From the NCBI GenBank assembly GCA_025354825.1, contig JANXMC010000072.1, positions 1 through 42,093 of the forward strand: DNA of 42,093 bases. The letters are read 5' to 3'. The position numbers were made by a program, and so were the translations under genes. The DNA comes from Myxococcales bacterium. Lineage in GTDB: Bacteria > Myxococcota_A > Polyangia > Polyangiales > Polyangiaceae. The first letter of the stretch is position 1; each line of letters begins with the position of its first letter. Positions 1 to 37,598 of this stretch are shown piece by piece. The notes below the pieces were generated by a model, which had not been told where the DNA came from, ran no database searches, and was given only the letters and a program-made list of their open reading frames with translations.

Positions 1-1572
1 AAAGCGAAGGCCCGTGGTCGCAACCGTCGCCGCGCTCGGCGATGCGGTCGCCGCACGGTCGCCGGTGAAAACACTGGCGACGAAGTCCGCCGCCGACGCG
101 CCACCCGCCACGCGCGCGCCGAGAGCCACGAGGGCGAGCGGCTCGCGCTCATGCACGGGCGTACGCGTGAGGGCGCCCGGGACGAAGGCGAGCGACGCGG
201 GCTCGGCGCGGTACTCCTCGAGAACGAGGTGCGCATTGTTGCCACCGAAGCCGAATGCGCTCACGGCCGCGACGCGCGGCGCGTCGCCCGCGCGCCACGC
301 CGACGGCGTCTCGGTCACGCGGAACGGCGACGCGCCGTCGAGCCCATCGAGGCGCTCGCTGCAGCTCGGCGTGGGCGGCGCGGTTTCGTGGGCGAGGGCC
401 GCCAATACCTTCTGCAGCCCCGCCACGCCGGCCGCCGTGATCAAGTGGCCGAGGTTCGCCTTGAGCGATCCCACGTGCACGCTCCCGGGCGCGCACTCGG
501 CGAAGACGCTGGCCATACTTTCGAGCTCGGTGCGATCGCCCACGGGCGTCCCCGTGGCGTGGCACTCGACGAGCGACACGCGCGAAGGGTCGATCCCCGC
601 TTGCATGTAGGCTGCACGCATCGCGCGAACCTGCCCGGCCGACGCCGGCGCGAGGAGACTCTTGCTCCGGCCGTCGTTCGAGAGGCCGACGCCGCGCACG
701 ACGCCGAGCACGCGGCGACCGTGGGCAACCGCGTCCGAAAGGCGCATGAGGGCGACCATGCCGGCCCCTTCGGCGGGGACGAGACCGTCGGCGCGACGAT
801 CGAAGGGGCGCGGCACGCCGGTGGGAGACAGCGCGGTGAGCGCCGAGAACCCAACGTGCAAGAAGAGGCTGTCGGCGCGGTTGGCGGCGCCCGCGAGCAT
901 CACATCGGCGCGCCGCTCGTGGAGCGTGTCGCAGGCGAGGCGAATGGCGTAAAGCGACGACGCGCAGGCCGCATCGATGCACATCGCTCCGGCGCCCAGC
1001 CGCAGCGCACGCGCGAGCACGTGAGCGGGAAGCCCGGACATGAACCGGTTCGCGGCGTGGGGCTTTTCGAGGCCGAGGAGCGCGCGCGCGCGGGCGCCGC
1101 CGCCGAGAAAGGCGCTGGGTTGCCCGTCGAGGAAGACGGCCTCGCCCCACTGCGCCATCGCCTCGGTGGGGAACGAGAGGTTGCCGACGACGGCACCGAT
1201 GCGCGCGCGGTTGGAGGGCGATGCCGCGAGCGCGTCGAAGCCCGCGTCGGCGAGCGCGTCGCGGCCCGTGGTGACGATCCACTGAAACAGAGGGTCGAGC
1301 GCGCGAAGCTCGTCGGCCGACACCGCGAGGCCTGCGCCGTCGAACACAGCCCCTTCGACGTAGCCGCCGCGTGTCGAGTAGGTCGCATCGACCGAAGACG
1401 TCGGGGTGCCGGCGACGAGGCGCGGGTCGATTCGAAAGCGCCCTTCGGGCACGTCGCGAACGAGCACGCGGCCGCGCGCGACGTTGTCCCACAGCGCTTC
1501 GGGAGAGAGCGCGCCGGGCAGGTTGCACGCCTGCCCGACGATGGCGATGGGCTCGAACGCGCGCGTCGTCAC
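1..1572 (-). CDS. pfa3: Pfa3 PUFA synthase, N-terminal ketosynthase (partial, 3' end off window)
   Basis: The reading frame is open from a GTG at 1572 to the window edge (524 codons) and is absent from the ORF track because it has no stop. It encodes a complete type I ketosynthase domain. The active-site Cys is about residue 203 (DAACASS), the first His about 338 (ECHATGT), and the Lys/His motif (KANLGHLITAAG) and FGFGGNNAH follow. The N-terminus (EPIAIVGQACNLPGA) is typical of a KS start. In myxobacterial PUFA synthases Pfa3 carries KS, chain-length factor, AT, two DH domains and often an acyltransferase; only the KS is seen here. The GTG overlaps the pfa2 stop (GTGA), so translation is probably coupled. 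The role is iterative condensation and dehydration steps of PUFA assembly in the cytosol. Domains beyond the KS are expected, not seen. Confidence 0.93.
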   Translation of the reverse strand, partial: MTTRAFEPIAIVGQACNLPGALSPEALWDNVARGRVLVRDVPEGRFRIDPRLVAGTPTSSVDATYSTRGGYVEGAVFDGAGLAVSADELRALDPLFQWIVTTGRDALADAGFDALAASPSNRARIGAVVGNLSFPTEAMAQWGEAVFLDGQPSAFLGGGARARALLGLEKPHAANRFMSGLPAHVLARALRLGAGAMCIDAACASSLYAIRLACDTLHERRADVMLAGAANRADSLFLHVGFSALTALSPTGVPRPFDRRADGLVPAEGAGMVALMRLSDAVAHGRRVLGVVRGVGLSNDGRSKSLLAPASAGQVRAMRAAYMQAGIDPSRVSLVECHATGTPVGDRTELESMASVFAECAPGSVHVGSLKANLGHLITAAGVAGLQKVLAALAHETAPPTPSCSERLDGLDGASPFRVTETPSAWRAGDAPRVAAVSAFGFGGNNAHLVLEEYRAEPASLAFVPGALTRTPVHEREPLALVALGARVAGGASAADFVASVFTGDRAATASPSAATVATTGLRF

Positions 1573-4500: not shown

Positions 4501-7500
4501 GCTTCGACGGGGTAGCCCGTCTTCTCGCTCACGACGGCGAGGAGCAGCGCCGCCGCATCGATTGCAGGCGGTGCTGCGCGAGGCGGCGCAGGGGCGACCG
4601 GCGCGGGCATCCGTGCGGACGCGACCTGCACCGCGGGCGGCGCGTGCGCGGGCGCGGGCGCAGGCGGCGGAACGTAGGCCGCAGGTGCGGGCGGCGCCGC
4701 GGCGAGGGCCGGGCGCGGTGCCGCGTGGGCTGCGATCGTCAGCGTCGGCGCGTGCCCCGCGAGGAGCGCGGCGAGGGCCGTCGATGTCGCCTCGGACGCT
4801 TGCAAATACGCAAGATGCGCATCGGTCATCGCCTTCTGAAACGCGGCATGGGACTCGGCGGTCTGCCGCTGCCCTTCGCGAAAGACATCGAGCCACCCCG
4901 CCGCAGCCGGCACGGCCGTCGGTGCGGCGTGCTGCTGCGTCGGCACCGTCGCGGGCGCGGCAACCGCGTGGCCGTTCGCGCCGTTCGTGTAGCCCCGGCT
5001 GTCGTTCGTGCGTGTCGTCATGGTCCGTGCGTCCTTCGGCGAAACGGTAGCGGCGGCCTGCATCGTCGGTGCGGGCGCGGGAGCGAGCACTGGCGCGCGC
5101 GGCTGCGCAGGCATCGGCGCCGGGAATGCCGGTTTGCCGTAGTTCACGCCGCGCAGCCCCACGCGCGACTTCGACGGCGCAGCCTTCGCCTTCGCGGGCT
5201 CGGCGCTCCGCGGCAGCTTCGTCACGTCGACGCCCGCGCCCACGGCGACGAGGCGTGCGAGGCACGCGAGCATCGCGAGGGCGCCGTCTTTCTTCGGAGC
5301 GTCCGTCGCGAAGGCGACCGCCTTGTCGCCCAGAATGCGCGCGACGAGCGGCGTGAGCACCGCGCCCGGTCCGACCTCGACGAAGACGCGCGCACCCGCG
5401 TCGTACATCGCACGCACCTCGTCGACGAAACGCACGGGGCGGGCGACCTGCTCGGCCACGACGTTTCGAAGCGCATCGGCGTCTCCTTCGTAGCGGCTCG
5501 CCGTCGTGTTCGCGAAGACCGCAATCGTCGGCGCCTTCACGTCGATCGTCGCCAGAAACGCGCGGAGCGGGGCCGTCGCATCGGCGACCAGGGGCGAGTG
5601 GAAGGCGGTCGAAACGGCGAGGCGCTTCGTCGTGACCTTCGCCTCGTCGAGAGCACGCGCGACCGCATCGATGGCGTCGCGTTCGCCCGATAGGACGACC
5701 TGATCGGGCGCATTGTGGTTGGCGACGACGACCTTTCCGACGACGCCAACGCGCGCGATCGCGCTCTCGGCAAGCTCCGCGCTGGTCACCGCCGCGAGCA
5801 TCGCGCCGGGCGTTCCGCTCGCCGCCGCCATCAGCTCGCCGCGCTTCCGTGCGAGCTTCATCAGCGAGGCGAAGTCGAGGCTCCCCGCCGCATGGAGCGC
5901 GACCAGCTCGCCGAAGCTGTGGCCGGCGACCATGGCGGGAACGACTCCGAAGAGTGCGAGCACGCGAAGGCTGGCGACGCTCGCCGCGCCGAGCGCCGGC
6001 TGCGCCCACTCGGTCGCCGTGAGCGTCGCCGACTGCGTCGCGCGCGCTGCCGCGTCGAACGTCGACGGCGGGAAGATGATCCGCGACAGCGGCGTCTCCG
6101 CGAGGGCAAATCCGTCGGCCTCGTCGAAGGCGCTCCGGGCTTCGTCGAAGGCCATCGCGAGGGCGCCGCCCATTCCGAGGCTCTGGCTCCCCTGCCCTGG
6201 AAACACGAAGGCGACGTCGCCGGCGACCGCGCCTGCACCGGCGAAGATACCGGGCGGCATCGCGGTTCCCGCCGTCACGGCGGCCCGCGCCTTCGCGAGG
6301 AGGGCGCGCGCGTCGTCCTCCGTCGTCGCCACGAACGCGACGCGGCGCCCATCAACGTGCGCGCCTGCCGGGTAGCGATCGATGGCGGCGCCCGCAGCTT
6401 CCGCGAGGGTCATCCCGCCCGCGAGATCGCTCTCGACCGCCGCGACGGATGTGGCCAGCGTCGCGGCATCGCCGCCCGCCGCGAGCAGCACGAACCCCGG
6501 CGACGCTGCGAGGCGCGGCGCCTTCCGCCCGGCGCCCACGTACTCTTCGAGGGTCAGGTGGAAGTTGCTTCCGCCGAAACCGAACGAGCTCACCGACGCA
6601 CGCCTCGGGTGGTCCGTCGCGGGCCGTATCCAGGGGCGCGCTTCGGTCGCGATGTAGAACGGGCTCGCGGCAAAATCGATCGCCGGGTTCGGCTCCGTCA
6701 CGTGCAGCGTCGGCGGGATCACCTTCTGATGCAGCGACAGCGCCGCCTTCAAAAGCCCCGCCGCCCCCGCCGCCGACTTCGTGTGACCAATTTGGCTCTT
6801 CACCGAGCCCACGGCGCACCACTGGCGATCCTTACGACCGCTCTCTTCGAACGCGATGCGCAGCCCTTCGAGCTCCGCGGCGTCGCCTGCGCGCGTCCCG
6901 GTTCCGTGGGCCTCGACGAGCTCCACGGTCGATGCCGAATACCCCGCGGCCTCGTACGCACGACGCAGCGCTTTCGCCTGCCCCTCGGGCACCGGCGCAT
7001 ACACGCTCTTCGCGCGCCCGTCGCTCGACGTACCCACGCCGCGGATCACGGCGTAGATCTTGTTCCCGTCCCGTTCGGCGTCGGCGAGGCGCTTCAGCGC
7101 CACCATGCCGAGCCCTTCGCCGAGGAGCGTGCCGTCGGCGCTCTTGTCGAAGGGCCTGCAGCGACCCGACGCGGAGAGCGCCGGCGTCTTGCTGAAGCAC
7201 ATGTACATAAAGATGTCGTTCATCGTGTCGACGCCGCCGCTCAAGACGACGTCGGCGCGCCCGAGAACGAGCTCGTCGATCCCCATCGCGATGGCCGCGA
7301 AGGAGCTCGCGCACGCGGCATCGGTCACGGCGTTGGTGCCGCCCGTGTCGAGGCGGTTGGCGATGCGCCCGGCGATGACGTTGCCGAGGAGCCCGGGGAA
7401 TGTCGCCTCGGTCCACGGCGCAAAACAGGCTGAAATCTTCGCGCACGCCGCCTGCACCTCGGCCTCGGGAATGCCCGCCGCGCGCATGCCGGCTTCCCAC

Positions 7501-7949
7501 GCGGGCCGCTGGAGGCGCGACGCCATTTGGCCGAACAGCTCCTGCCCGCTGGTCGCACCGAGGAGCACGCTCACGCGACTTCGGTCAGCCGCTTCGAGCT
7601 TGCCGTCGAAGCAGTCTTCGAGCGTCGTGCGCGCCACCAAAAGCCCCAAGAGCTGGGACGTGTCGGTCGACGAAAGCATGCTTGGGGGGATGCCATTGGC
7701 GAGCGTGTCGAACGGCACCTCGGGCAAGAACGCGCCACGCCGGCAGTAGGTCTTGTCGGCGATCTTCGGATCGGCGTCGAAGTAGTCCTCGAGCTTGAAG
7801 TGCGAGTCGGGCACGTCGGTGACGAGGTCGATGCCGCGCACGACGTTCTGCCAGAACGCCGCGACGTCGACGGCGCCGGGAAAGAGCCCGCCCATGCCCA
7901 CGATGGCGATCGCCACGCTCTCTTGGTCCTTCGTCGTCTTCGTCGTCAT
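1569..7949 (-). CDS. pfa2: Pfa2 PUFA synthase: KS-MAT-ACP-ACP-KR-DH
   Basis: A 2126-residue multidomain synthase of the PfaA type. The order is KS (active-site Cys about 213 in DAACASS, then AHGTGT and a GHTKSAAG motif), malonyl transferase (FPGQGSQ, Ser about 678 in GHSFGE), an Ala/Pro-rich linker, two tandem acyl carrier domains (LGIDSIKRVEIL, phosphopantetheine Ser about 1165 and 1259), ketoreductase (ASGGARGVTA near 1560, a serine-tyrosine region near 1740) and a C-terminal hot-dog dehydratase with HxxxGxxxxP (His about 1866) and DxxxQ (about 2030). All catalytic residues expected for these domains are visible. It loads malonyl units, condenses them and reduces the keto group during PUFA synthesis. 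The ATG overlaps the pfa1 stop and its own stop overlaps the pfa3 GTG. Only two ACPs are present, which is few for this family. No phosphopantetheinyl transferase gene is in the window. Confidence 0.96.
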   Translation of the reverse strand: MTTKTTKDQESVAIAIVGMGGLFPGAVDVAAFWQNVVRGIDLVTDVPDSHFKLEDYFDADPKIADKTYCRRGAFLPEVPFDTLANGIPPSMLSSTDTSQLLGLLVARTTLEDCFDGKLEAADRSRVSVLLGATSGQELFGQMASRLQRPAWEAGMRAAGIPEAEVQAACAKISACFAPWTEATFPGLLGNVIAGRIANRLDTGGTNAVTDAACASSFAAIAMGIDELVLGRADVVLSGGVDTMNDIFMYMCFSKTPALSASGRCRPFDKSADGTLLGEGLGMVALKRLADAERDGNKIYAVIRGVGTSSDGRAKSVYAPVPEGQAKALRRAYEAAGYSASTVELVEAHGTGTRAGDAAELEGLRIAFEESGRKDRQWCAVGSVKSQIGHTKSAAGAAGLLKAALSLHQKVIPPTLHVTEPNPAIDFAASPFYIATEARPWIRPATDHPRRASVSSFGFGGSNFHLTLEEYVGAGRKAPRLAASPGFVLLAAGGDAATLATSVAAVESDLAGGMTLAEAAGAAIDRYPAGAHVDGRRVAFVATTEDDARALLAKARAAVTAGTAMPPGIFAGAGAVAGDVAFVFPGQGSQSLGMGGALAMAFDEARSAFDEADGFALAETPLSRIIFPPSTFDAAARATQSATLTATEWAQPALGAASVASLRVLALFGVVPAMVAGHSFGELVALHAAGSLDFASLMKLARKRGELMAAASGTPGAMLAAVTSAELAESAIARVGVVGKVVVANHNAPDQVVLSGERDAIDAVARALDEAKVTTKRLAVSTAFHSPLVADATAPLRAFLATIDVKAPTIAVFANTTASRYEGDADALRNVVAEQVARPVRFVDEVRAMYDAGARVFVEVGPGAVLTPLVARILGDKAVAFATDAPKKDGALAMLACLARLVAVGAGVDVTKLPRSAEPAKAKAAPSKSRVGLRGVNYGKPAFPAPMPAQPRAPVLAPAPAPTMQAAATVSPKDARTMTTRTNDSRGYTNGANGHAVAAPATVPTQQHAAPTAVPAAAGWLDVFREGQRQTAESHAAFQKAMTDAHLAYLQASEATSTALAALLAGHAPTLTIAAHAAPRPALAAAPPAPAAYVPPPAPAPAHAPPAVQVASARMPAPVAPAPPRAAPPAIDAAALLLAVVSEKTGYPVEALAPEMSLEADLGIDSIKRVEILGAFKERMPDGIELDPLKLAQLATLGDIAKALTPAGARVPATAPAAAAASSQVDAAEVFLAIVAEKTGYPRDALALEMSLEADLGIDSIKRVEILGAFKERVPVAPEIDPLKLAQLATLGEIARALSPASATTTTSAPAKIASEPPATQREPSPHARRETPLSPMKAAPKATMAQRGVLRIQEIPQRARRPFAPPAGRVIIVVDDGRGVASAVAALLEDRGMHAVVLARGDQPERGVAVGGLVDVSALGDVASSDDAVAHLKDALVTVRGVASDLRGAPGAFFLAAFDTGGDFGTTRVDAVRAITGGLAGLVKTAALEWPTVACKALDIDLTGMAALDAARIVIDELASGFDGVEVGRRGAHRVEPIVVTEALAATGQSLVSPRSVIVASGGARGVTATTLRALARACKPRIVLLGRTDIVAAEPASCAEIAEEAKLKPALIAVAKAEGRALSLVEIGQWAARIVAAREIRAFLGELEGLGAKAIYVATDIRDEKSVAAAVAEGRRAFGPITGIVHGAGVLADKRIEDKTREQVDRVVDTKVRGLRALLDATASDPLDLLCAFSSVAGRFGNVGQVDYAMANEAMSKMLQAEQQRRGSDVVVKAMHWGPWEGGMVTPALHAIFVERGVHVLTHAEGARFFVDELAARRMAGAFGTTVEVVFGGALSPAIKTADEPSVAITRQHVNAKTHGYLADHAVQGVPVLPVVIALELMAEAAGALRPDLVVTALRDVKVLRGVRLASFTGAGTELEVAIVRGASEGGTVRAEIRGRDAAAPHYTATLDLASSALPPTAAPAVPSLEPYAVPRGGIYQDALFHGPRFHLIESIEGVAPRAMVARVRGVVATTWPKHPWRLDAAALDAGLQLVLLWARHAARGSFLPTGVGAVILHTPGALEGELRAILLADPPTASRVTADVFFVDASGRVVAEMRGVEAHRLPEDSSFVAGARESATRQLT

Positions 7950-9649
7950 GCAGTGTCCTCAAAGCGCCGAGGGGTGAACGCAAAGGCGGCGTCGGGAACG
8001 GGCACTCCATAGGAGCGTAGCTGCTGCGCGCGCGTGATGGCGGCCGCGCCTTCGAGGAAGTTCAGCCCTATCTGCGCGACGGTTCGGCTCGCGAGCGGCT
8101 CTAAAAAAGAGCCTTGGGCCCATGCGTTGAACGCGCCCATCGCCGGCCCGCACCAGATTTGAAAATCGGTCGCGCGCGCGTCATCGCCCGCGATCGCCCA
8201 CTTGCTCGCCTGGCCGAGGTACGCGCGAAAGACGAGGGCCATCCGGTGCTTCTCGTCGCGCGCCGCGCGCTCGTTTTCTGCGGGGGCGCGCGTTTCGAAG
8301 AACGCATGCGTCGCGCGCCAGAGGTCGTCGATCGACCCCTTGAACACGTCGCGTTCGAGGCGCTCGCGGTCGCCTTTCGGGATCGCGTCGAGCGATGCGT
8401 GGGCCTTGTAGAGCTCGTACAATTTGTGCGCGCGGACCGCGAACAGGGTGCCCCGTTTGAGCACCTGCACCTTCACGCCCATCTCGAACATGTCGGCGGC
8501 GGGCGCCATCATCACGTCGCCGAGACGCGCTTCGGCGAGGAGCGCTTTGCCCCGCGGCGAGAGGCCGCTCTCGACGGCAGCTTGGTTCACCGACCCGGTC
8601 ATCACGTACCCCGCGCCCATGGCGAAGGCCGAAGCGACCGATGAGGGCGTGCCGAGGCCGCCCGCCGCGCCGACACGAATCGCCTCGACGTAGCCCCGTG
8701 CGCGCGTGATGTCGTCGCGCAGGCGAAGCACCGTGGGCAACACCGCCGGGAGCGCTTGGTTGTCGGTGTGGCCGCCCGAGTCGGCTTCGACGGTGATGTC
8801 CGACGCGACCGAGATGCGCGCGGCGAGGCGCGCTTCGTCGGCCGTGATGGCGCCGGTGCGGGCGAGCTCCTCGAGCATGGCCGTAGGCGCAGGCTCCATG
8901 AAGCGCCGCGCGACTTCGGGACGGGAGACCTTCGCCATGACGAAATTCTTCCGCACGACGCGGCCGTCGCCGTCTTGTGTGAGGCCGCTTGCCGCGTAGC
9001 GCACGACCATCGGCGTGAGATCCATGTAGGCCGACGCCGAGACGCACGTGACGCCGCGCGCGAGGTAGAGCGCGACGACCGCGGCTTCCAGATCGGCTTC
9101 GTGGGGGCTGTGAATCAAGTTCACGCCGTAGCTGAGCGCGCCGTCGTGGCCGTGGTTCCGGTCGCCGAGCGCGTTCGAAATGGTGTCGAGCTCGCGCGCG
9201 ACCCTTTCGATCGACAGCCCCGCCGCGCCGAAGAACCCAAGCATCCCCGCGCGCGCCGCGGCGATCACCATCTCGGCGGTCGCGATGCCGTTGGCCATTT
9301 CACCGACGACGTAGGCGAAGCGCACACGGTGCGCCTCGTTGAACGCACGATCGCCGAGCCATTCCGGATAAAGCGGCGGTAGCGCGCCGAGCAGGTTCAA
9401 ACGCGACGCGCTCGACCCGTTCGCCGCGTGGGATCCGAACGTCGCCTCGCCTCCGAACGCCACGCCCACACCGCCCTCGTCGTTCGCCACCACGAACGCC
9501 GTCTCGCGCGCGCGCGCCGCGGCACGGCCGATTTCACCGCGCGTGAACGACGCCGGCTCACGACCTGCCGTCCATGTGCCGAGCACACCCAAGCTCGAGT
9601 CCGCTCTTATCGAACCGCTCACAGAGCCACTCCTCTTCGATGACGGCAT
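7946..9649 (-). CDS. pfa1: Pfa1 (PfaD-type) FMN-dependent enoyl reductase of PUFA synthase
   Basis: A TIM-barrel enoyl reductase of the PfaD/2-nitropropane dioxygenase family. It reduces selected enoyl intermediates in trans during PUFA assembly. Visible motifs are a YGVNLIHSP segment near the centre, VEADSGGHTDN near residue 290 (conserved His region), and a nucleotide-binding stretch GAAGGLGTPSS followed by TGSVNQAAVESG near 340-355. I chose ATG 9649 (567 residues, start MPSSKRSG) over the upstream ATG at 9730, because the extension would run through the divergent promoter region and into oleA. It is the first gene of the pfa operon and ends in an ATGA overlap with pfa2. A TATAAG hexamer 12 nt upstream of the ATG is a possible -10 element. 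Confidence 0.93.
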   Translation of the reverse strand: MPSSKRSGSVSGSIRADSSLGVLGTWTAGREPASFTRGEIGRAAARARETAFVVANDEGGVGVAFGGEATFGSHAANGSSASRLNLLGALPPLYPEWLGDRAFNEAHRVRFAYVVGEMANGIATAEMVIAAARAGMLGFFGAAGLSIERVARELDTISNALGDRNHGHDGALSYGVNLIHSPHEADLEAAVVALYLARGVTCVSASAYMDLTPMVVRYAASGLTQDGDGRVVRKNFVMAKVSRPEVARRFMEPAPTAMLEELARTGAITADEARLAARISVASDITVEADSGGHTDNQALPAVLPTVLRLRDDITRARGYVEAIRVGAAGGLGTPSSVASAFAMGAGYVMTGSVNQAAVESGLSPRGKALLAEARLGDVMMAPAADMFEMGVKVQVLKRGTLFAVRAHKLYELYKAHASLDAIPKGDRERLERDVFKGSIDDLWRATHAFFETRAPAENERAARDEKHRMALVFRAYLGQASKWAIAGDDARATDFQIWCGPAMGAFNAWAQGSFLEPLASRTVAQIGLNFLEGAAAITRAQQLRSYGVPVPDAAFAFTPRRFEDTA

Positions 9650-9721
9650 CGGACGCGTCGCCTTATAGACCGTTTGACATCCGAGGCGCCATGGGCGCGA
9701 ATCCGGGCGCCAAAGGTGCGC
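9650..9721. promoter_or_regulatory. Divergent promoter region between pfa1 and oleA
   Basis: Only 72 bp separate the pfa1 start (9649, minus) from the preferred oleA start (9722, plus). On the plus strand a consensus TTGACA lies at 9674-9679; 17 bp further the hexamer GCGAAT is a poor -10 match. On the minus strand TATAAG (complement of 9662-9667) is a good -10 match but no clear -35 is seen. The two putative promoters would overlap, so expression of the two operons could be linked or mutually exclusive. The elements are read by eye and no operator dyad is obvious. Confidence 0.5.
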
Positions 9722-10741
9722 GTGATCCATTTCGAACGTGTTTCAATCCTGAGTCTCGCCCACGTAGACGCGCCCGTCCGCGTGTCGACGTCGTCGCTCG
9801 AGGCACGCCTCGCGAGCACGCTCGCGCGCCACGGTTTCGCGCGCGGCATCCTCGAGTCGCTCACGGGCATCCGCGAGCGTCGCTTCTGGGACGAGGGCGT
9901 CATGCCGAGCGACGCCGCGACCAAGGCCGCCGAGCGCGCTCTCGAGTCCGCACGTGTCGATCGAACCCGCATAGGGCTGCTCGTGAGCACCTCGGTGTGC
10001 AAAGACTTCATCGAGCCCTCCGTTGCCGCTCTCGTGCACGGAAACCTCTCGCTCGGTCCGCACTGCCAGAACTTCGACATCGGCAATGCGTGCCTCGCCT
10101 TTCTCACCGGTATGCAAGTCGCGGGCGATATGATCGAGCGTGGTCACCTCGACTACGCCCTCATCGTCGACGGCGAGAATAGCCGCCCTGTCGTGGAGGC
10201 AACGCTCGCGCGTCTCGAGCAGCCTACCTGCGACGCGAAGACCGTTCGCGACAGCATCGCAACGCTCACGCTCGGCTCGGGCGCGGCCGCGATGGTTCTC
10301 GCGCGGCGCGACCTTGCACCCCGTGCGCCGCGCCTTTCGTCGATCGTATCGCGCGCGGCCACCGAGCACCGTCACCTGTGCCGCGGCCAAGTCGACGGCA
10401 TGGTGACCGACGCGGGCGGCCTGCTCACCGCGGGCGTCGCCCTCGCCGAAGCCACGTGGAACGAAGGGCGCGAATCGCTCGGGTGGGACGCCGACGTCTT
10501 CGACGAGCTCGTGCTCCACCAGGTGAGCTCGGTGCATACCGCCAAGCTGCTCGAGCGCCTCGGCCTCGACGCGACCAAGGTGCTCCCCCTTTTTCCAGAG
10601 TTCGGAAACATCGGCCCAGCGTCGATCCCCATCGTGCTCGCAAAGGCGGTCGAAGCGGGCCGCGTGCGCGCCGGAAGCCGCGTGGCGTTGATGGGAATCG
10701 GTAGCGGCCTCAACTGCTCGATGATGGAGCTCGTATGGTGA
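9722..10741 (+). CDS. oleA: OleA, thiolase-fold head-to-head acyl condensing enzyme
   Basis: A 339-residue OleA. It performs a non-decarboxylative Claisen condensation of two acyl thioesters to a 2-alkyl-3-ketoacid. The sequence aligns by eye with Xanthomonas OleA throughout: VSILSLAHVDAP at the N-terminus, the OleA-specific Glu in FIEPS (about 98), active-site Cys in NACLAFLTG (about 124), His in LHQVS and Asn in GNIGPASIP, ending in GIGSGLNCSMMELVW. The track starts at a TTG (9674) which is itself the putative TTGACA box. GTG 9722 is preferred because it reproduces the Xanthomonas N-terminal length and has AAAGG upstream. GTG 9716 is an alternative. It is first in the ole operon, divergent from pfa1. 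Confidence 0.95.
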   Translation: MIHFERVSILSLAHVDAPVRVSTSSLEARLASTLARHGFARGILESLTGIRERRFWDEGVMPSDAATKAAERALESARVDRTRIGLLVSTSVCKDFIEPSVAALVHGNLSLGPHCQNFDIGNACLAFLTGMQVAGDMIERGHLDYALIVDGENSRPVVEATLARLEQPTCDAKTVRDSIATLTLGSGAAAMVLARRDLAPRAPRLSSIVSRAATEHRHLCRGQVDGMVTDAGGLLTAGVALAEATWNEGRESLGWDADVFDELVLHQVSSVHTAKLLERLGLDATKVLPLFPEFGNIGPASIPIVLAKAVEAGRVRAGSRVALMGIGSGLNCSMMELVW

Positions 10742-11736
10742 TGGGAAGCGACGTTCAAACGGGGCGCGCAACGCCGCCCACCGCCGTCTCGAAGGCTCTC
10801 TTCCCCTTCGACGGCCACTACTTCGATCGCGGCGGCGGCATTCGTATGCACTACCTCGACGAAGGAGCCGGCGATCCGGTCGTCATGGTCCACGGCAACC
10901 CGACCTGGTCGTTTTACTACCGCAACCTCGTGCGCGAGCTGGCTCGCGGGGCGGGCGGCGCAGGCGCAAGCTACCGCTGCATCGTCCCCGATCACGTCGG
11001 CTGCGGCTACTCCGACAAGCCGAGCGACGCCGCGTACACGTACACGCTCGAGCAGCGCATCGACGACCTCGAAGCGCTCCTCGAGCACCTCGGTGTGCGC
11101 GAGCGCGTCACCCTCGTCGTCCACGACTGGGGCGGAATGATCGGCATGGGGTACGCGACGCGTCACCCCGACCGCGTCGCCCGCATCGTGCTCCTCAACA
11201 CGGGCGCATTTCATCTCCCCGCGAGCAAGTCGTTCCCGTGGCCGCTCTGGCTCGCCCGCGATACGCGCATCGGCTCGCTCTTGGTCGAGAAGCTCAACGC
11301 CTTCAGCCTCACCGCCACGCGCGTCGCTGTCACACGCCACGCGATGCCAAAAGAGGTCCGCGACGCGTACATGGCGCCCTACGCCGCGCCCGGCGACCGC
11401 ATTGCGACGCTCCGGTTCGTGCAAGACATCCCGCTCAGGGCGTCCGATCGCGCGTGGCCTGTCGTGAGCGGCATCGAGGCGAAGCTCCCGACCCTCGCGA
11501 AGAAGCCGATGCTCATTTGCTGGGGCGGCAAAGACTTCGTATTCGATAAACACTTTCTCGCGCGCTTCCGCGAGCTCTTCCCCGACGCAAAGGTCTTGGA
11601 TCTGCCCGACGCCGGCCACTACGTCCTCGAAGACGCGGCCAAAGAGATCCTCCCCGCAGTGCGCGCGTTCCTCGAGGCGAACGCTCTGCCGACCGGCCCG
11701 ACGAGCTCCGCGACAACGAGCAAGGGCGTGGCGTGA
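10735..11736 (+). CDS. oleB: OleB, alpha/beta-hydrolase beta-lactone decarboxylase
   Basis: A 333-residue alpha/beta-hydrolase of the haloalkane-dehalogenase-like OleB family. OleB removes CO2 from the cis-beta-lactone formed by OleC and yields the internal cis-olefin. Visible are HGNPTWSFYYR (oxyanion region, about 53), the nucleophile Asp about 131 in VVHDWGGMIG, and the catalytic His near 295 in DAGHYVLED. An Asp nucleophile in place of Ser fits OleB. The ATG lies inside the last codons of oleA (7-nt overlap); ATG 10741 is a nearby alternative start. The stop overlaps the oleC GTG, so the operon is translationally coupled. Confidence 0.94.
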   Translation: MVMGSDVQTGRATPPTAVSKALFPFDGHYFDRGGGIRMHYLDEGAGDPVVMVHGNPTWSFYYRNLVRELARGAGGAGASYRCIVPDHVGCGYSDKPSDAAYTYTLEQRIDDLEALLEHLGVRERVTLVVHDWGGMIGMGYATRHPDRVARIVLLNTGAFHLPASKSFPWPLWLARDTRIGSLLVEKLNAFSLTATRVAVTRHAMPKEVRDAYMAPYAAPGDRIATLRFVQDIPLRASDRAWPVVSGIEAKLPTLAKKPMLICWGGKDFVFDKHFLARFRELFPDAKVLDLPDAGHYVLEDAAKEILPAVRAFLEANALPTGPTSSATTSKGVA

Positions 11737-13394
11737 GCGCACGCTCCGCCAACATCGCGAGCGCCCTCACGTCGATGGCCGATCGAATGCCGCGATCGAC
11801 CGCCATTTACGTGCCGACCGGGCGCGGCGGTGACGGCGTGCAGCGCTACGTGGAGCACACCTACGAAGCGCTCGACGGCGACAGCACCACGATCGCAAAA
11901 GGGCTGTTGGCGCTCGGCTTCGAGTCGGGCAGCCGCGCCGCGCTCATGGTGAAACCGAGCTACGAGCTCTTCGCCGTCACGTTCGCGCTGTTCAAAGCCG
12001 GCATCGTCCCTGTGCTGGTCGATCCGGGCATCGGTATCCCGGCCCTCGGCACCTGCCTCGCCGAAGCCGCGCCGTCGTCGTTCATCGGTATTCCCCAAGC
12101 CCACGTCGCGCGCATGGTCCTCGGCTGGGCACGCCCCACGATTCGCCGCCTCGTCACCATCGGCCGCAAGCTCCTCTGGGGCGGCGCGACGCTCGACGAC
12201 GTGCGCCGCGCGGGCGGCGCGAAAAACGCCCCTGCGCTCCCTACGGCCCGTGAGAGCGACATGGCCGCCGTTCTCTTCACGAGCGGCAGCACGGGCATTC
12301 CAAAAGGTGCCGTCTACGCGCACGGCACGTTCGCCGCGCAGGTCGAGATGATTCGCACCACCTACGCCATCGCGCCGGGTGAAATCGACCTGCCCACGTT
12401 CCCGCTCTTCGCGCTGTTCGATCCGGCCCTGGGGATGACGACGGTTCTACCCGAGATGGATTTCACGCGCCCGGCGCGCGTCTCTCCGAGAAACGTCATC
12501 GAGCCCATTCGCAAATTCGGAATTACCAATATGTTCGGCTCCCCGGCGCTACTGAATCGCGTCGGGCGGTATGGCGACGAGCAGAACGTATCGCTCCCGT
12601 CGCTCCGCCGCGTCATCTCGGCGGGCGCGCCGGTGCCTGCGAGCGTGCTCGCGACGTTCTCGAAAATGCTCAAGGGCGACGCCGAAATCGTGACCCCTTA
12701 CGGCGCCACCGAAGCGCTCCCCGTCGCCACCATCGGCAGCCGCGAAATTCTCACGTCGACCCGCGCGAAGACCGACGGCGGAGCGGGCGTCTGCGTCGGC
12801 CGCACGGTCGCGGGCGTGCGCCTCGAGATCATCCAAATTCGCGACGAGGCCATCGCCCACTGGTCCGACGATTTGCACGTACCGCCCGGTGAAATCGGCG
12901 AAATCGTCGTGGCGGGCCCCAATGTCACCCACAGCTATTTCCACCGCGACGAGGCGACGCGCCTCGCGAAAATCGACGACGGCCGCGGCGGCGTCATGCA
13001 CCGCATGGGCGACGTCGGGTACCTCGATAGTGACGGTCGCCTGTGGTTCTGCGGGCGCAAAGCCCACCGCGTGATCACGACGGCGGGGACGCTCTTCACC
13101 GACCCCTGCGAAGCGATCTTCAGCACGCACCCCGGCGTCTATCGAGCAGCCCTCGTCGGTGTAGGCTCGGGAGGGACGAAGCGACCCGTGATTTGCATCG
13201 AGCTCGAAGAGGCTGCGCGCCATCGCGATAAGGGCGAACTCACGAAAGAGCTATTGGCCCTCGCCGCGAAAGTGCCAATGACGAGCAGGCTCGATACAAT
13301 TCTTTTTCACAAATCGTTCCCCGTCGACATTCGGCACAACGCAAAAATCTTCCGCGAGAAGCTCGCCGTCTGGGCCGCGGGAGAGCTTTCATGA
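11733..13394 (+). CDS. oleC: OleC, ATP-dependent beta-lactone synthetase (ANL superfamily)
   Basis: A 553-residue adenylate-forming enzyme. OleC activates 2-alkyl-3-hydroxyacids with ATP and closes them to beta-lactones. The P-loop-like motif FTSGSTGIPKG lies near residue 187, YGATEALP near 321, GDVGYLDSDGRLWFCGRK near 427, and the C-terminal Lys region RHNAKIFREKL near 535. The start is GTG in a GTGA overlap with oleB, and the stop overlaps the oleD ATG. Long-chain acyl-CoA ligases share the fold, but placement between oleB and oleD makes OleC the better call. OleB, OleC and OleD form one large complex in characterised systems. Confidence 0.94.
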   Translation: MSARSANIASALTSMADRMPRSTAIYVPTGRGGDGVQRYVEHTYEALDGDSTTIAKGLLALGFESGSRAALMVKPSYELFAVTFALFKAGIVPVLVDPGIGIPALGTCLAEAAPSSFIGIPQAHVARMVLGWARPTIRRLVTIGRKLLWGGATLDDVRRAGGAKNAPALPTARESDMAAVLFTSGSTGIPKGAVYAHGTFAAQVEMIRTTYAIAPGEIDLPTFPLFALFDPALGMTTVLPEMDFTRPARVSPRNVIEPIRKFGITNMFGSPALLNRVGRYGDEQNVSLPSLRRVISAGAPVPASVLATFSKMLKGDAEIVTPYGATEALPVATIGSREILTSTRAKTDGGAGVCVGRTVAGVRLEIIQIRDEAIAHWSDDLHVPPGEIGEIVVAGPNVTHSYFHRDEATRLAKIDDGRGGVMHRMGDVGYLDSDGRLWFCGRKAHRVITTAGTLFTDPCEAIFSTHPGVYRAALVGVGSGGTKRPVICIELEEAARHRDKGELTKELLALAAKVPMTSRLDTILFHKSFPVDIRHNAKIFREKLAVWAAGELS

Positions 13395-14404
13395 AGGCGC
13401 TCGTCACGGGCGGGGGCGGCTTCCTCGGCAAAGCCATCGTCGCGCGGCTGCGCGCCCGTGGCGACGAGGTCACGAGCTTCGCGCGCGGCGCGTACCCCGA
13501 GCTCACGGCGATGGGCGTCACCGTCGTGCGCGGAGATCTCGCCGACACCGAAGCCCTCCGGAGAGCCGCCGCGGGGTGCGACGTCGTCTTCCACGTCGCG
13601 GCAAAACCCGGGGTTTGGGGCTCGTTCGACGAGTTTCACCGCGCCAACGTCGAAGGAACGCTCCACGTCATCGACGCCTGCCGCGCAGCTTCGGTCACAC
13701 GCCTCGTCTACACGAGTACGCCCAGCGTCGTCTTCGGGACGGTGGGGCACGAGGGGGTCGACGAGTCGGTCCCCTACCCGCGCGACGACGAGTTCATCGC
13801 CGACTACCCGCGCACGAAAGCCGCTGCCGAGCGCGCGGTCCTCGCCGCCAACGGCCCCGACCTCGCCACCGTAGCGCTTCGCCCCCATCTCATTTGGGGT
13901 CCGGGCGATAACCACTTGGTCCCGCGCATCGTCGCCCGCGCAAAGGCGGGCCGACTTCGCAAAGTGGGGACTGGCAAATACGCCGTCGACTCGGTCTACA
14001 TCGACAACGCGGCCGAAGCCCACGTCCTCGCCGCCGACGCGCTCTCCCCGGGCGCGCCCCACGCGGGCAAAGCCTATTTCATCTCCCAGGGCGAGCCGGT
14101 CGCCATCGGGGATCTCATCGACCGCATCGTCGAAGCGGCGGGCTTGCCCAAGGTCACGCGCTCGATCCCCGCGGGCGTCGCCTACGCGGTAGGCGCGATC
14201 TCCGAAGTGCTCTACCGCGCCGTCGGCGCGAAAAACGAGCCTCTCCTGACCCGCTTCGTCGCAAAGCAGCTCTCGACCCCTCACTGGTTCGACATCGGCG
14301 CCGCGAAACGCGACTTCGGCTACACGCCCACGATATCCCTCGACGAAGGGATGAAGCGCCTTGGCGTATGGCTACGATCCGGCGCCCCCGCGACTGCCTA
14401 CTAG
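13391..14404 (+). CDS. oleD: OleD, NAD(P)H-dependent 2-alkyl-3-ketoacid reductase (SDR)
   Basis: A 337-residue extended short-chain dehydrogenase of the 3-beta-hydroxysteroid dehydrogenase-like group. OleD reduces the OleA product to the 3-hydroxyacid. The dinucleotide-binding motif TGGGGFLG is at residues 6-13, the Ser region YTSTPSVVFG near 107, and the catalytic pair YPRTK near 140. The ATG overlaps the oleC stop (ATGA). It is the last ole gene and ends 13 bp from a convergent gene, so no separate terminator is seen. Order A-B-C-D matches the classical ole operon. Confidence 0.93.
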   Translation: MKALVTGGGGFLGKAIVARLRARGDEVTSFARGAYPELTAMGVTVVRGDLADTEALRRAAAGCDVVFHVAAKPGVWGSFDEFHRANVEGTLHVIDACRAASVTRLVYTSTPSVVFGTVGHEGVDESVPYPRDDEFIADYPRTKAAAERAVLAANGPDLATVALRPHLIWGPGDNHLVPRIVARAKAGRLRKVGTGKYAVDSVYIDNAAEAHVLAADALSPGAPHAGKAYFISQGEPVAIGDLIDRIVEAAGLPKVTRSIPAGVAYAVGAISEVLYRAVGAKNEPLLTRFVAKQLSTPHWFDIGAAKRDFGYTPTISLDEGMKRLGVWLRSGAPATAY

Positions 14405-15385: not shown

Positions 15386-16135
15386 ATGAACTTCGTTTTC
15401 CATCACCACCTGGCGCTGCGCGATCTCGCCTCGCCCCTCGCAGGCGTGGGGGCGATGCTCCCGGACTTGTGGCGCATGGCCGACCGGCGTGTCCATGCGC
15501 TCCCCCGCGCCGGCGCCGATGCTGCATTCGAAGGCGCCACGGGGGCGACGCGCGAAGTCCTCGCGGGCATCTGCCACCACATCGCCGTCGACGCGTGGTT
15601 CCACGCCGCTCCGGTCTTTCGCGACGGCGAGCGCGCCGCCGCCGCTGCGATCCGCGCGGCCGCCCCAAACGCGCCGCGCATCGGCCTTTTCGCCCACCCA
15701 CTCTGGGAAATCTGCCTCGACGGCGCGCTCCTCCACAACGCCGGCGCCGATCATGTCGTGAGCGCCCTTCGCCACAGCTTGGCCGTCGCACGCGAGAGCG
15801 CCGCAATGGGCGAGGCCGCCGAGGTCCACCACTTCCGCCGCATCGCACGGGACCAAGCGGCCCGCGAGGCGTTCGCCCGAAGGCTCGAGAAGCTCGAGTC
15901 CGCCATCACCGACGGCCCGTGGGTGAGCGGCTACGCGAACGGCGCGGGAATCGTCGATAGGCTCGACGGCATGCGTGCGCGCTTCGAATTTCCCCCCATC
16001 GAAGGGCCCGAACGGGCCGCCCTCGCGAAGGCGCTCGACGGGCTCTTGGCCATCGCCGCCGAGCCCGTTCGCGCGCTCCTCGCGTGCGGAACCTTCAGCC
16101 CGGCCCCATCTCCACAGTCTTGTCGAGCTTGCTGA
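15386..16135 (+). CDS. Hypothetical protein, possibly AcpH/DUF479-like
   Basis: About 249 residues, no signal peptide. The N-terminus MNFVFHHHLALRD followed by GAMLPDLWRM, and a later CHHIAVDAWFHAAPVF, recalls the acyl-carrier-protein phosphodiesterase (AcpH) family, where His and Asp residues bind metal. The match is only by eye. The track start is ATG 15332. ATG 15386 is preferred because the family begins MNF and the extra 18 codons have lower GC at third positions. Neither start has a clear ribosome site. The 3' end overlaps the convergent TPR gene by 41 bp. An AcpH-like enzyme near PUFA-synthase ACPs would be notable, but the assignment is weak. Confidence 0.6.
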   Translation: MNFVFHHHLALRDLASPLAGVGAMLPDLWRMADRRVHALPRAGADAAFEGATGATREVLAGICHHIAVDAWFHAAPVFRDGERAAAAAIRAAAPNAPRIGLFAHPLWEICLDGALLHNAGADHVVSALRHSLAVARESAAMGEAAEVHHFRRIARDQAAREAFARRLEKLESAITDGPWVSGYANGAGIVDRLDGMRARFEFPPIEGPERAALAKALDGLLAIAAEPVRALLACGTFSPAPSPQSCRAC

Positions 16136-16523
16136 CCAGCTCGCCGGTGAGGCGCCTTTTCCAGTCTTCGACCTCGGTCGCGTGCGCGCCGTGCGGGAAA
16201 ACACCCTTGTAGCGCTCGAGCCTCGCGACGCCGTCGCGAACGGGCTCTTGCCGCGCCGTCGCCAGAAGCGCGCTGAAGTACGCATCGTCGACGAGATCGC
16301 GCTCTAAAAGCTTCTCGGTGGCGTCGAGCTCCATGGCCTTCTCGAAGTCGGTCACGGCCTCGGCGTACTGCTCCAAAAGCTCGTAGGCCGTTGCGCGATC
16401 GACCATGATTTCCGGGCCGGCGCTGCCGCCATCGATCTCCTCCGTCGCCGATGCGACGGCTTCGTCGTACTTCCCCTGCTCGATGAGCTTGCGTGCGAAC
16501 GACATCCCGTAGCGACCGCCCAT
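16095..16523 (-). CDS. TPR-repeat protein, 142 residues
   Basis: A short soluble helical protein with TPR-like spacing: FARKLIEQGKYDEAVASATEEI near 9-30 and ATAYELLEQYAEAVTDFEKAMELD near 44-67, the latter a clear A/Y/A TPR pattern. The remaining C-terminal half is also helical. A GGGAGGT ribosome site six bases before ATG 16523 supports the start. It is probably a protein-interaction adaptor; partners are unknown. It is divergent from the repeat element and sigma gene upstream. Confidence 0.75.
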   Translation of the reverse strand: MGGRYGMSFARKLIEQGKYDEAVASATEEIDGGSAGPEIMVDRATAYELLEQYAEAVTDFEKAMELDATEKLLERDLVDDAYFSALLATARQEPVRDGVARLERYKGVFPHGAHATEVEDWKRRLTGELVSKLDKTVEMGPG

Positions 16524-16994
16524 AACGACCTCCCGCAGGCGCCCGTGAGCCGGGCGCGCGTCCGCGTTCTAGTCGATGCGCCGCCGGGGCGTCGCGGGCG
16601 CTTCGTCGCTTCGTGCCGGCTCAGAGCTTCAGGAGGCGCTCGCGGGCGGCCTCGACCGAAACATACCGGGACAAAAAGAAACGGCGTCCAAGGCTGGGGG
16701 GGGATGCCTCGAACGCCGACAGCCACTAAAGCATGCGTCGTGCCACGCACACTTCGTGTCTTCACGGGGGGTTAGCAACGCCCCTGGAGACAACTTTTTC
16801 AATTATGAAAGAACTGCCGTGCATTCGCGGAAGCGCGCCCTGCGAAGCGGCGGTGGCAGTGCCAGGTGCTTGGAACCTGTGAACAAAAAAGTCGAACGAT
16901 GTTTTCGACGATAGGGACTTTCTGTGACATTAGGCGCGCCTCTACATTTTCTCACTCCTCACCGGCACGGGGACCGAATGAGGAGCGCCCGCGA
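16524..16994. other. 471-bp intergenic region upstream of the sigma gene
   Basis: No convincing gene. It holds the structured repeat copy A (16670-16746), then a short hairpin ACAC-TTC-GTGT, a GGGG...CCCC hairpin at about 16766-16784 followed by TTTTT, an AT-rich stretch with TTTCA-ATTA-TGAAA, a GTCGAA/TTCGAC hairpin near 16890-16908, and the palindrome AGGCGCGCCT near 16933-16942. The AT-rich stretch near 16791-16815 is the best place for a promoter of the sigma gene. The ORF track covers it with low-quality frames only. Confidence 0.6.
16670..16746 (+). repeat. Structured repeat copy A with G8 loop (partner at 37261-37339)
   Basis: About 77 bp, matching the reverse complement of 37261-37339. 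The core CGGCGTCCAAGGCT is identical in both copies. It folds as an outer stem CGGCGT/ACGCCG, an internal loop CCA/CGA, an inner stem AGGC/GCCT and a loop dominated by eight G residues. A second block ending GTCGTGCC follows. The stem and flanks are conserved while the G-run differs by one. This suggests selection on structure or a recent common origin. Function is unknown. Confidence 0.75.
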
Positions 16995-18497
16995 ATGCAC
17001 GGAGCCAGCATGACCAACGAGCGAGAAGCCGACGAGTTCGAGAGCCCCCGTTCCGGAACGCAGGCGCGTGAGCCTGCCTTGGTAGCGGACGCCGGCGCCA
17101 TCGAAGACGATCCCGAAGACATCGGGGAGATCTTGGACGGTAAGAGCCGCGTCGACGGACGGTTGAATGGGGCCCTGCCGCAGCGCGTATTCGACGCGCC
17201 CCGGCCGCGCACCGCGGCACCGCGTCCGAGCGGTGACGAGGCGGAAGAGAGCTCGGCTCCTTCCCTCGACCCGCTGCGTTTTTATTTGAACCGCATGGCG
17301 AAGACGCCGCTCCTCACGCGTGAGGGCGAAGTCGAGCTCGCGCGCCGTATCGAGCAAGGCGAGATTGCCGTCCTCCACTCGATCGTCGGGTCCCAGGCGG
17401 CGCTTCGCGAAGTGTTGGAGCTCGGGGCCAAGCTCCGTCAGCACAAGCTCCGCGTCCGCGAGGTCGTGAAGGTCGAAGCCGACGAAGAGGTCGATTTCGA
17501 CGAGCAGACGGAAGAGCGTCGCGTCCTCGGGCTCATGGGCCAGTTGAAGCGGTCGCTCACGGTCGGCAACACGCCGGACATCACCGCCCTCGAGAAGATG
17601 CGCCTCAACAAGTCGGCGGTCGATCACGTCGTTCGTGGTCTTCGCAGCCAGCTTCGCAAGGCCGAGCGCTTCGAGCGCCGCGACGACAAAGCCCCGGCCA
17701 CGAAGCCGACGGCCGACGTGGTTGCTCTTCGCGAGACGGAAGCGTCGATCCGCACGGCCGAGCGCCGCATCGAGATCGCCAAAGCCGACCTCGTGAAGGC
17801 GAACCTTCGCCTCGTCGTCTCGCTCGCCAAGAAGCACACGAACCGTGGCCTTCAGTTCCTCGACCTGATTCAGGAGGGGAACATCGGCCTCATGCGCGCC
17901 GTCGAGAAGTTCGACTACAAGCGCGGCTACAAGTTCAGCACGTACGCCACGTGGTGGATCCGTCAGGGCATCACCCGCGCCATCAGCGACCAGGCGCGGA
18001 CCATTCGAGTGCCGGTGCACATGACGGAAGTCATTCACAAGGTTCGCCGCACGAGCGTTCTCCTCTCGCAGGAGCTCGGTCGCGAGCCGACGCCCGAAGA
18101 GCTCGCGGCGAAGATGGAGATCCCGGTCGAGCGCGTGCGCACGGCCCTCCGGTGCACGCGCGAGCCCGTGAGCCTCGAGACGCCGGTCGGCGATGAAGGC
18201 GACTCGGAGCTTGGTGACTTCGTCGAAGACACGACGTTCCCGTCGCCGGAGACCGCCGTTCACGATGCGCGCGTCGCATCGCAGACGCGCGAGCTTCTCA
18301 AGACGCTCACGCCGAAAGAGGCGAAGGTCCTCCGTATGCGCTTCGGCATCGAAGAGCGCAGCGAGCACACCCTCGAAGAGATCGGCGCAATGTTCTCGGT
18401 CACCCGCGAACGCGTTCGTCAGATCGAAGCCAAGGCGCTCAAGAAGCTCCGCCACCCCGCGCGCGCGCCGCAGTTGAAGCGGGTCGCCGAGGCCTGA
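16995..18497 (+). CDS. RpoD-type sigma-70 family RNA polymerase sigma factor (group 1 or 2)
   Basis: About 500 residues. After a disordered acidic N-terminus without an evident region 1.1, region 1.2 starts at SLDPLRFYLNRMAKTPLL. An insert of about 120 residues (non-essential region) follows. Region 2 is intact (LRLVVSLAKKHTNRGL, FLDLIQEGNIGLMRAVEKFD, YKFSTYATWWIRQ), then region 3 (RTIRVPVHMTE) and region 4 with the helix-turn-helix (TLEEIGAMFSVTRERVRQIE). It directs RNA polymerase to -10/-35 promoters. The track start (16866) is too early. ATG 16995 has AGGAG nine bases upstream; ATG 17010 has GGAG at five and is equally possible. Whether it is the housekeeping sigma or a group 2 paralogue cannot be told here. 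Confidence 0.93.
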   Translation: MHGASMTNEREADEFESPRSGTQAREPALVADAGAIEDDPEDIGEILDGKSRVDGRLNGALPQRVFDAPRPRTAAPRPSGDEAEESSAPSLDPLRFYLNRMAKTPLLTREGEVELARRIEQGEIAVLHSIVGSQAALREVLELGAKLRQHKLRVREVVKVEADEEVDFDEQTEERRVLGLMGQLKRSLTVGNTPDITALEKMRLNKSAVDHVVRGLRSQLRKAERFERRDDKAPATKPTADVVALRETEASIRTAERRIEIAKADLVKANLRLVVSLAKKHTNRGLQFLDLIQEGNIGLMRAVEKFDYKRGYKFSTYATWWIRQGITRAISDQARTIRVPVHMTEVIHKVRRTSVLLSQELGREPTPEELAAKMEIPVERVRTALRCTREPVSLETPVGDEGDSELGDFVEDTTFPSPETAVHDARVASQTRELLKTLTPKEAKVLRMRFGIEERSEHTLEEIGAMFSVTRERVRQIEAKALKKLRHPARAPQLKRVAEA

Positions 18498-36856: not shown

Positions 36857-37207
36857 ATGACCTCGCGTGGGCGAATGTCCAAACCGATGAATCTCGACGC
36901 GCCGACCCAGGCCGCGCGAGTGGCGCGTGCGCGCCAGATGGGCAAAAAGGGCGAGTCGCGCAAGATGCTCGTGGCCCTTCGCGAGGCCTGCGTGCGCGAC
37001 GAAGGGGCCGCGTGGCTCTGGACGCTCTACGGCGCGCGCCTCGCCGAAAATGGGCGTCTCAGTGACGCCGAGCACGCGCTGCGTCACGCGCTCTGGCTGC
37101 GTCGGACGTCGGGCGACGCACCTCGCGTGCGCACCACTCAAGCGTTGATCGACGAGCTGGGGACGAGGGATTCATCCCACCTTCGCACGAGTCAATTTCA
37201 GTTTTGA
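36857..37207 (+). CDS. Small TPR-like helical protein, 116 residues
   Basis: A basic N-terminus is followed by helical repeats that look like half-TPRs (ARQMGKKGESRKMLVALREAC, WTLYGARLAENGRLSDAEHALRHAL). Starts at 36857, 36875 and 36887 are all possible; none has a good ribosome site. The function is unknown. It is divergent from uvrA (83 bp apart). A 9-bp inverted repeat AGTTTTGAA/TTCAAAACT starts in its last codons (37200-37208, 37246-37254). Confidence 0.65.
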   Translation: MTSRGRMSKPMNLDAPTQAARVARARQMGKKGESRKMLVALREACVRDEGAAWLWTLYGARLAENGRLSDAEHALRHALWLRRTSGDAPRVRTTQALIDELGTRDSSHLRTSQFQF

Positions 37208-37260
37208 ACGACGATCTCGCGTATACGATTGCCAAGTAGCTGAAATTCAAAACTCGAGCG

Positions 37261-37339
37261 GCGGCACGACTCGTGCGTAAGTGGTTGGCGGCGTTCGAGG
37301 CTATCCCCCCCCCAGCCTTGGACGCCGTTTTCTTTTGTC
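37261..37339 (-). repeat. Structured repeat copy B with G9 loop (partner at 16670-16746)
   Basis: Read on the minus strand, this ~79-bp element keeps the same stems as copy A (CGGCGT/ACGCCG and AGGC/GCCT), with nine G residues in the loop. The 3' part holds GCACGA-G-TCGTGC, a nearly perfect palindrome. It lies directly downstream of the ribbon-helix-helix gene on the same strand, while copy A lies upstream of a sigma gene, so the genomic context differs between copies. Confidence 0.75.
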
Positions 37340-37370: not shown

Positions 37371-37598
37371 CTAGCTCCGCTTCCGAGACTTCGGCCCGGT
37401 GGGCGCCCCCGAATCGGGCGCCGACTCTGTTGGCTCCTCCGAGCGCCTCGAGGCGCTGCGGCCGGCTTGGTCGAGGGCGCGCCGCAACAGAAACTCGATT
37501 TGGCCGTTCAGGCTGCGGAGGTCGTCGGCTGCCCAACGCTGCAAGGCGTCGAGCAGCGACGGATCGACCCGAAGCAAGAACGGTTTACGTTCGGCCAC
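37371..37598 (-). CDS. Arc/MetJ-type ribbon-helix-helix DNA-binding protein
   Basis: 75 residues. The N-terminal PFLLRVDPSLLDALQRWAAD followed by SLNGQIEFLLRRAL is a typical ribbon-helix-helix of the Arc family; the strand KPFLLRV would sit in the DNA major groove as a dimer. The C-terminal ~30 residues are a Ser/Pro/Lys-rich tail. It lies 15 bp after the SPFH gene, in one operon, and no toxin gene follows. It is a good candidate to bind the palindrome upstream of the SPFH gene. Confidence 0.85.
   Translation of the reverse strand: MAERKPFLLRVDPSLLDALQRWAADDLRSLNGQIEFLLRRALDQAGRSASRRSEEPTESAPDSGAPTGPKSRKRS

Follow-up and report, generated by a model that had tools for sequence, protein, structure and literature searches.

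The window, i.e. the whole stretch of 42,093 nucleotides analysed here, contains two inverted copies (A and B) of a short element which, judging from their sequence, are probably paralogous genes for Pxr-like small RNAs (sRNAs), controlled by sigma-54 and a PxrR-type activator and carrying a poly-C loop whose probable partners are G-tracts in mRNAs. Copy A (16670-16746) and copy B (37261-37339) lie 20.5 kb apart, share 87% identity across 75-77 nt in a pairwise comparison (blastn), and form the longest inverted pair within the window, the match segments I1 and I3 being two pieces of this one match. The inverted partner about 20 kb away, announced in the original prediction, is thus real. The flanks, described there as different, are so only in part, since both copies have the motif of a sigma-54 promoter and, upstream, a dyad (Table 1).

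The original prediction was made on the + strand of copy A, on which the loop is G8, and proposed a poly-G loop able to form a quadruplex or to pair with a C-rich target. On the G-rich strand, folding is no better than that of dinucleotide shuffles (z of +0.93 for A and +0.31 for B); for the C-loop strand, z is -2.4 (A) and -3.1 (B) for a longer element. The U-tract is present on the C-loop strand only, where it follows an uninterrupted 13-bp stem (CGGCGUUCGAGGC/GCCUUGGACGCCG, G·U pairs included). The internal loop formerly placed within the hairpin closes on this strand into G·U pairs, giving one continuous stem, and in form hairpin and U-tract look like an intrinsic terminator. The G8/G9 loop is a non-functional reading, the wrong strand having been taken. 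A G-quadruplex element, in DNA or RNA, on the G-rich strand can hardly be sustained: the G8/G9 tract does exist there, but a single G-tract alone cannot form the usual four-tract structure, the hairpin on this strand equals shuffled sequence in folding, and both the promoter and the U-tract point to the opposite strand. As the RNA strand bears poly-C, a partner would be G-rich rather than C-rich, which leaves the poly-G loop, the quadruplex and the C-rich target unsupported.

Both copies have a promoter of sigma-54 form in the element's conserved 5' third, its GG and GC lying twelve positions apart. In copy B, the -24 box reads CGGC where TGGC is expected, and this counts against the reading as sRNA genes. 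Since the first stem base is located 12 nt past the -12 GC, the predicted RNAs would consist of the hairpin and U-tail alone. Comparison of the copies within the source genome revealed a common dyad further upstream, also found in three more divergent members at -66 (TTTCAGATCTGAAG, C329), -67 (TTTCAGATCTGCAT, C579) and -55 (TTTCAAATCCGAAA, C540).

Table 1. Features of copies A and B, neighbouring genes and divergent members in the source genome (window positions, except in the last three lines, where contig and position are given)
Feature	Position	Strand	Basis and remarks
Copy A activator (UAS) dyad TTTCATAATTGAAA, TTTCA-N4-TGAAA	16797..16810	-	10/10 match; at -65, i.e. 65 bp upstream of the -24 box
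Copy A sigma-54 promoter TGGCACGACGCATGC	16731..16745	-	motif match; -24 TGGCACG, -12 TGC
Copy A predicted 49-nt RNA	16670..16718	-	fold, -23.5 kcal/mol
Copy A 13-bp stem	16706-16718 paired with 16682-16694	-	fold
Copy A loop AUCCCCCCCCA	16695-16705	-	fold
Copy A U-tract UUUCUUUUUGUC	16670-16681	-	sequence
Copy B UAS dyad TTTCAGTTTTGAAC	37196..37209	+	9/10 match; at -66, i.e. 66 bp upstream of the -24 box
Copy B sigma-54 promoter CGGCACGACTCGTGC	37262..37276	+	GG and GC intact, first T replaced by C
Copy B predicted 51-nt RNA	37289..37339	+	fold, -24.4 kcal/mol; 13-14-bp stem, C9 loop (UAUCCCCCCCCCA), U-tract UUUUCUUUUGUC
Sigma-70-family factor (regions 1.2, 2, 3, 4)	16866..18497	+	Pfam; divergent from copy A
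TPR protein, next co-directional ORF 3' of copy A	16095..16523	-	Pfam; start ~147 nt past the U-tract
Small ribbon-helix-helix (RHH) protein	37371..37598	-	weak RHH_5 match below the curated cut-off; convergent with copy B
Divergent member	C540:23990-24068	+	pattern / covariance model
Divergent member	C329:5096-5165	-	pattern / covariance model
Divergent member	C579:17549-17626	-	pattern / covariance model

With regard to neighbouring genes, the sigma gene at A and the RHH gene at B are as originally described (Pfam; the RHH match is weak). The window contig gave no match to a sigma-54 activator domain. In relatives, the genes next to the elements are miscellaneous and several are convergent, with no consistent bacterial enhancer-binding protein (bEBP) neighbour. 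These surroundings bear on the possibility that a longer sigma-54 transcript has the hairpin in its leader as terminator or attenuator, the C-loop switching read-through to a downstream gene. Hairpin and U-tract would make a good terminator, the TPR gene is co-directional with copy A and begins about 150 nt downstream, and some elements of relatives likewise precede a co-directional gene (e.g. L097). We nevertheless consider this reading unlikely, given that copy B has no close co-directional downstream gene and is faced by the RHH gene, that the neighbours vary so widely among relatives, and that one genome (G032) carries at least eight head-to-tail units, each with its own promoter.

In the source genome (8.98 Mb in 859 contigs), no third close copy of A/B was found by blastn, and promoter/C-run patterns together with a covariance model revealed the three divergent members, bringing the total to at least five copies, A and B included. 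The stem is invariant between A and B themselves, and covariation among the four own-genome relatives amounts to one double change, which is not significant alone. The exact A/B hairpin pattern had no match in 85,000 genomes, the stem sequence not being found beyond the source genome, and blastn of A/B against 59 relatives returned weak partial matches only. A small mobile repeat had also been proposed, which would be a REP- or MITE-like sequence duplicated in the opposite orientation; the 87% identity and the sharp outer ends, with the same TTTTGTC in A and B, are in its favour. It is very unlikely, considering that A and B each come with a promoter and activator site, that no target duplication was seen, that no transposase-like gene is present among the ORFs scanned between the two copies, and that only two copies are close. 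Moreover, relatives keep the promoter, dyad and C-loop but not the stem sequence, and this retention of architecture with unrelated stems indicates selection on the architecture, not copying.

The covariance model, built from copies A and B only, gave weak matches in 22 of 108 family genomes, with the same plan and different stems, so that the search advised in the original prediction extended the set both within the genome and among its relatives. A plain pattern (sigma-54 box, C7 run and T4) matched 55 of the 108 genomes, representing 28 of 48 genera, compared with two genomes for a reversed-pattern control. Shifting the -12 element yielded 12 rows in nine genomes, of which ten were true elements or overlapped one and two were chance matches; this control used SW, not GC, two bases downstream, and was looser than intended. 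It indicates that the promoter boxes must be correctly spaced. In a phylum sample, matches came from this family, from further families of its order and, elsewhere within the class, from family f17; the few beyond the class look like background. The promoter positions left free by the search follow the sigma-54 consensus in the 77 predicted elements, with G in 74% after TGGCAY, T in 56% before GC, and A/T in 96% after the -12 GC, against a GC-rich background.

Among the fetched loci, 35 of 47 distinct poly-C-loop hairpins with U-tracts are preceded by a TGGC(A/G)(C/T)-N7-GC box. Between the -12 GC and the beginning of the stem, distances of 12-13 nt are the most frequent, so that +1 falls on the stem base. 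In the best-sampled subfamily (16 distinct sequences), all cells of the 16 pairs are standard pairs (100%), and double-sided changes occur in 6 of these 16 pairs, a number reached by none of 500 shuffles; relatives thus do display the compensatory changes whose absence would have spoken against the element. The C-run of the loop ranges from C7 to C10 across the family. Rfam 15 gave no match at gathering score within the window, and ten related loci yielded no credible match at E<=1. With many relatives, covarying stems, a promoter and terminator, and no Rfam match, the early suggestion of an unnamed small RNA family has strong support from the sequence evidence.

The dyad, too, recurs among relatives. 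Its full form, TTKCR-N4-YGMAA, is present in 36 of 76 elements (mean 0.26 and maximum 2 in block shuffles), and allowing one mismatch raises this to 61 of the 76 (5.2 in block shuffles). Dyad positions cluster near -56, -66, -77, -88 and -98, i.e. with a spacing of about 10.5-11 bp that corresponds to one helix face; the Rayleigh test for this phasing gives p ~3e-9 at a period of 10.7-11 bp, an optimistic value as the period was scanned and related genomes are not independent. When the search was run with the dyad and promoter, leaving out the C-run, a poly-C-loop hairpin was present close to +1 in 19 of the 30 loci read.

Among the sRNAs of myxobacterial development, Pxr has received the most study. 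It blocks fruiting-body formation in Myxococcus and undergoes Pxr-L/Pxr-S processing, its synthesis requires the sigma-54 regulator PxrR, a C-to-A change in its C7 loop abolishes its function, and its direct targets are not known in the literature (PMC5684412, PMC5568312, PMC11928866). An exact pattern built on published primer and probe sequences located pxr in 13 records; the titles of 12 name Myxococcaceae or one of its genera, and the remaining title names Comamonas. This last record (BNCN01000002.1, 'Comamonas sp. KCTC 72670') bears a typical Myxococcus pxr locus, which makes a wrong name or contamination probable. A Pxr DNA query, put together from the published primers and probe, had no match in 284 phylum genomes, a sample of uncertain Myxococcaceae content whose negative outcome is therefore uninformative.

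Comparison with pxr revealed a shared control region and loop. The M. xanthus pxr promoter (TGGCACGGCGACTGC) is, as in A and B, directly upstream and of the form TGGCACG-N6-GC. Two perfect dyads are located at about -111 and -92 upstream of pxr in all 12 loci with enough flank (TTTCACTTATGAAA and TTGCAGTCATGAAA in M. xanthus), compared with a single TTTCA-N4-TGAAA dyad in each of A and B, that of B with one mismatch. The first stem-loop (SL1) of Pxr carries UUCCCCCCCA in its loop, i.e. UUC7A, against AUC8A in A and AUC9A in B, although the loop has been shown to be essential in Pxr only, and all these RNAs have a U-rich 3' end. In contrast, Pxr is about 108 nt long and has three stem-loops, with its C-loop hairpin near the 5' end and a separate terminator hairpin (SL3), whereas the single hairpin of the 49-51-nt A and B RNAs is itself the terminator and makes up the entire RNA but for the U-tail. 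Furthermore, the SL1 stem (CTGAAGGNGG...CCCCTTCAGC) is unrelated to the CGGCGUUCGAGGC stems of A and B, and pxr adjoins pxrR, while A and B are far from the pxrR orthologue (contig C42). Lacking the three stem-loops, the SL1 stem sequence and the adjacency to pxrR, A and B are Pxr-like genes and not Pxr orthologues.

The source genome encodes about 70 sigma-54 activator domains, with one clear PxrR orthologue (C42:17717-19051, 54% identity, 481 bits, the second best scoring 372). PxrR orthologues (463-498 bits, 53-56% identity) were found in all genomes searched but two of genus g13, and these two also have no element by pattern. The orthologues have a recognition helix in common, TTLWRKM, and many genomes have a dyad, perfect or nearly so, within about 300 nt 3' of the pxrR orthologue (pxrR stop positions being approximate for G097, G263 and G086). 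In G048, the dyad, the sigma-54 box and a C7-loop hairpin are all located 3' of this gene. From these features, we infer that PxrR-type regulators bind the dyad and that A and B may belong to their regulon. Genera g15 and g63 possess a PxrR orthologue and no element by pattern. In g15, a dyad and a TGGAAC-type box precede a second response-regulator gene, which indicates that regulon content varies. The same order (pxrR orthologue, dyad, sigma-54-like box, second response-regulator gene) is observed in the source genome and suggests a PxrR-driven cascade.

The complete genome G032 contains at least eight head-to-tail sigma-54 sRNA genes in one array (C1:9568000-9582000), each with its own promoter, about 110 nt long and with two poly-C-loop hairpins, the poly-C length varying between near-identical copies. 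Most of them have dyads such as TTGCAAGGATGCAA at -66, and they show an intermediate form between A/B and Pxr. In g14 genomes, the dyad and sigma-54 promoter are followed by a conserved structured RNA that has no long C-loop hairpin and may be another sRNA of this regulon.

Taken together, the comparison suggests that the control region and functional loop of Pxr are part of a far broader system, which has several members per genome and extends to a minimal form of one hairpin. Such a system would offer a comparative handle on the role of the C-loop, a testable PxrR binding site, and natural loop and stem variants. In the literature, with reference to Chen et al. 2014, pxr is considered to have arisen within Cystobacterineae and is reported to be confined to them. 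In a broader proposal, which we regard as evenly poised, a class-wide regulon of Polyangia would comprise one PxrR-type activator driving paralogous one-hairpin RNAs that act by their poly-C loop on G-tracts, Pxr being a later, elaborated member. If true, Pxr would not be a recent invention of Cystobacterineae but a branch of an older system, and RNAs of about 45-60 nt would be among the smallest trans-acting bacterial sRNAs proposed.

With regard to the mechanism, a PxrR-type sigma-54 activator would bind the TTTCA-N4-TGAAA dyad and remodel the sigma-54 polymerase on the -24/-12 promoter into the open complex, transcription then presumably beginning at the stem base. While being transcribed, the RNA would fold into one hairpin of 13 bp, its 11-13-nt loop including C8-C9, and this same hairpin, with the U-tract, would end transcription. 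A free RNA of about 50 nt would result, with poly-C as its only long unpaired sequence besides the U-tail; a terminator hairpin serving as the whole regulator would be a notable minimal design. Most likely, the C-loop would act in trans on G-tracts of mRNA leaders (ribosome-binding regions) and repress translation.

Pairing with G-tracts is favoured because Pxr needs the intact C7 loop of SL1 and because of the precedent of RepG from Helicobacter pylori. The latter reportedly uses a C/U-rich terminator loop to target a G-repeat. It is a regulatory RNA aimed at a homopolymeric G-repeat in an mRNA leader (PMC8295292). A C-rich terminator loop is present in A and B; RepG differs in phylum, in promoter class, in its greater length and in having a known target, tlpB. 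In the source genome, G7 precedes ATG at 64 sites and C7 at 46, which is no clear enrichment and gives no real support, so that the target step is put forward as a proposal. About one third of 20 G7-ATG sites read start plausible ORFs. As a lead only, GGGGGGGGACGGAAACTATG (C57:8284-8303 of the source genome) precedes a Ser/Thr-kinase-like ORF and may be a candidate target leader for the C8 loop.

The main rival for this step is that the C-loop binds a protein, acting as a sponge instead of by base pairing. A homopolymer as the sole conserved unpaired sequence, the variable loop length (C7-C10), the many paralogues per genome and the missing enrichment of G-tract targets would all suit a sponge. 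We know of no poly-C-binding regulator in these bacteria, however, and the phenotype of the Pxr loop point mutant is compatible with either model, so that we hold protein binding to be doubtful and retain pairing with G-tracts as the preferred reading.

Other known sRNAs share single traits with this family. To our knowledge, sigma-54/UAS control is not part of the sX13 family. The regulatory sRNA sX13 of Xanthomonas has been described with C-rich loops (PMC3771888). It differs from A and B in being longer, with several loops, and in belonging to another lineage. The Qrr sRNAs of Vibrio occur as several paralogues per genome under one sigma-54 activator, and in this respect resemble the Pxr-like RNAs; unlike them, they are Hfq-dependent, with several stems and no poly-C loop.

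Elsewhere in the window, positions 9674-14404 (and 1569-9730 on the other strand) encode a ketoacyl synthase III, an alpha/beta hydrolase, an AMP-ligase and a 3beta-HSD reductase in order. The gene order at 9674-14404 looks like an oleABCD olefin cluster, adjoining a PKS/FabD-like pair, a combination found in polyunsaturated fatty acid or olefin synthesis. The PKS gene, in which Pfam recognises two phosphopantetheine attachment domains, also contains a tandem 229-nt repeat (4051-4279 and 4333-4561, 79% identical).
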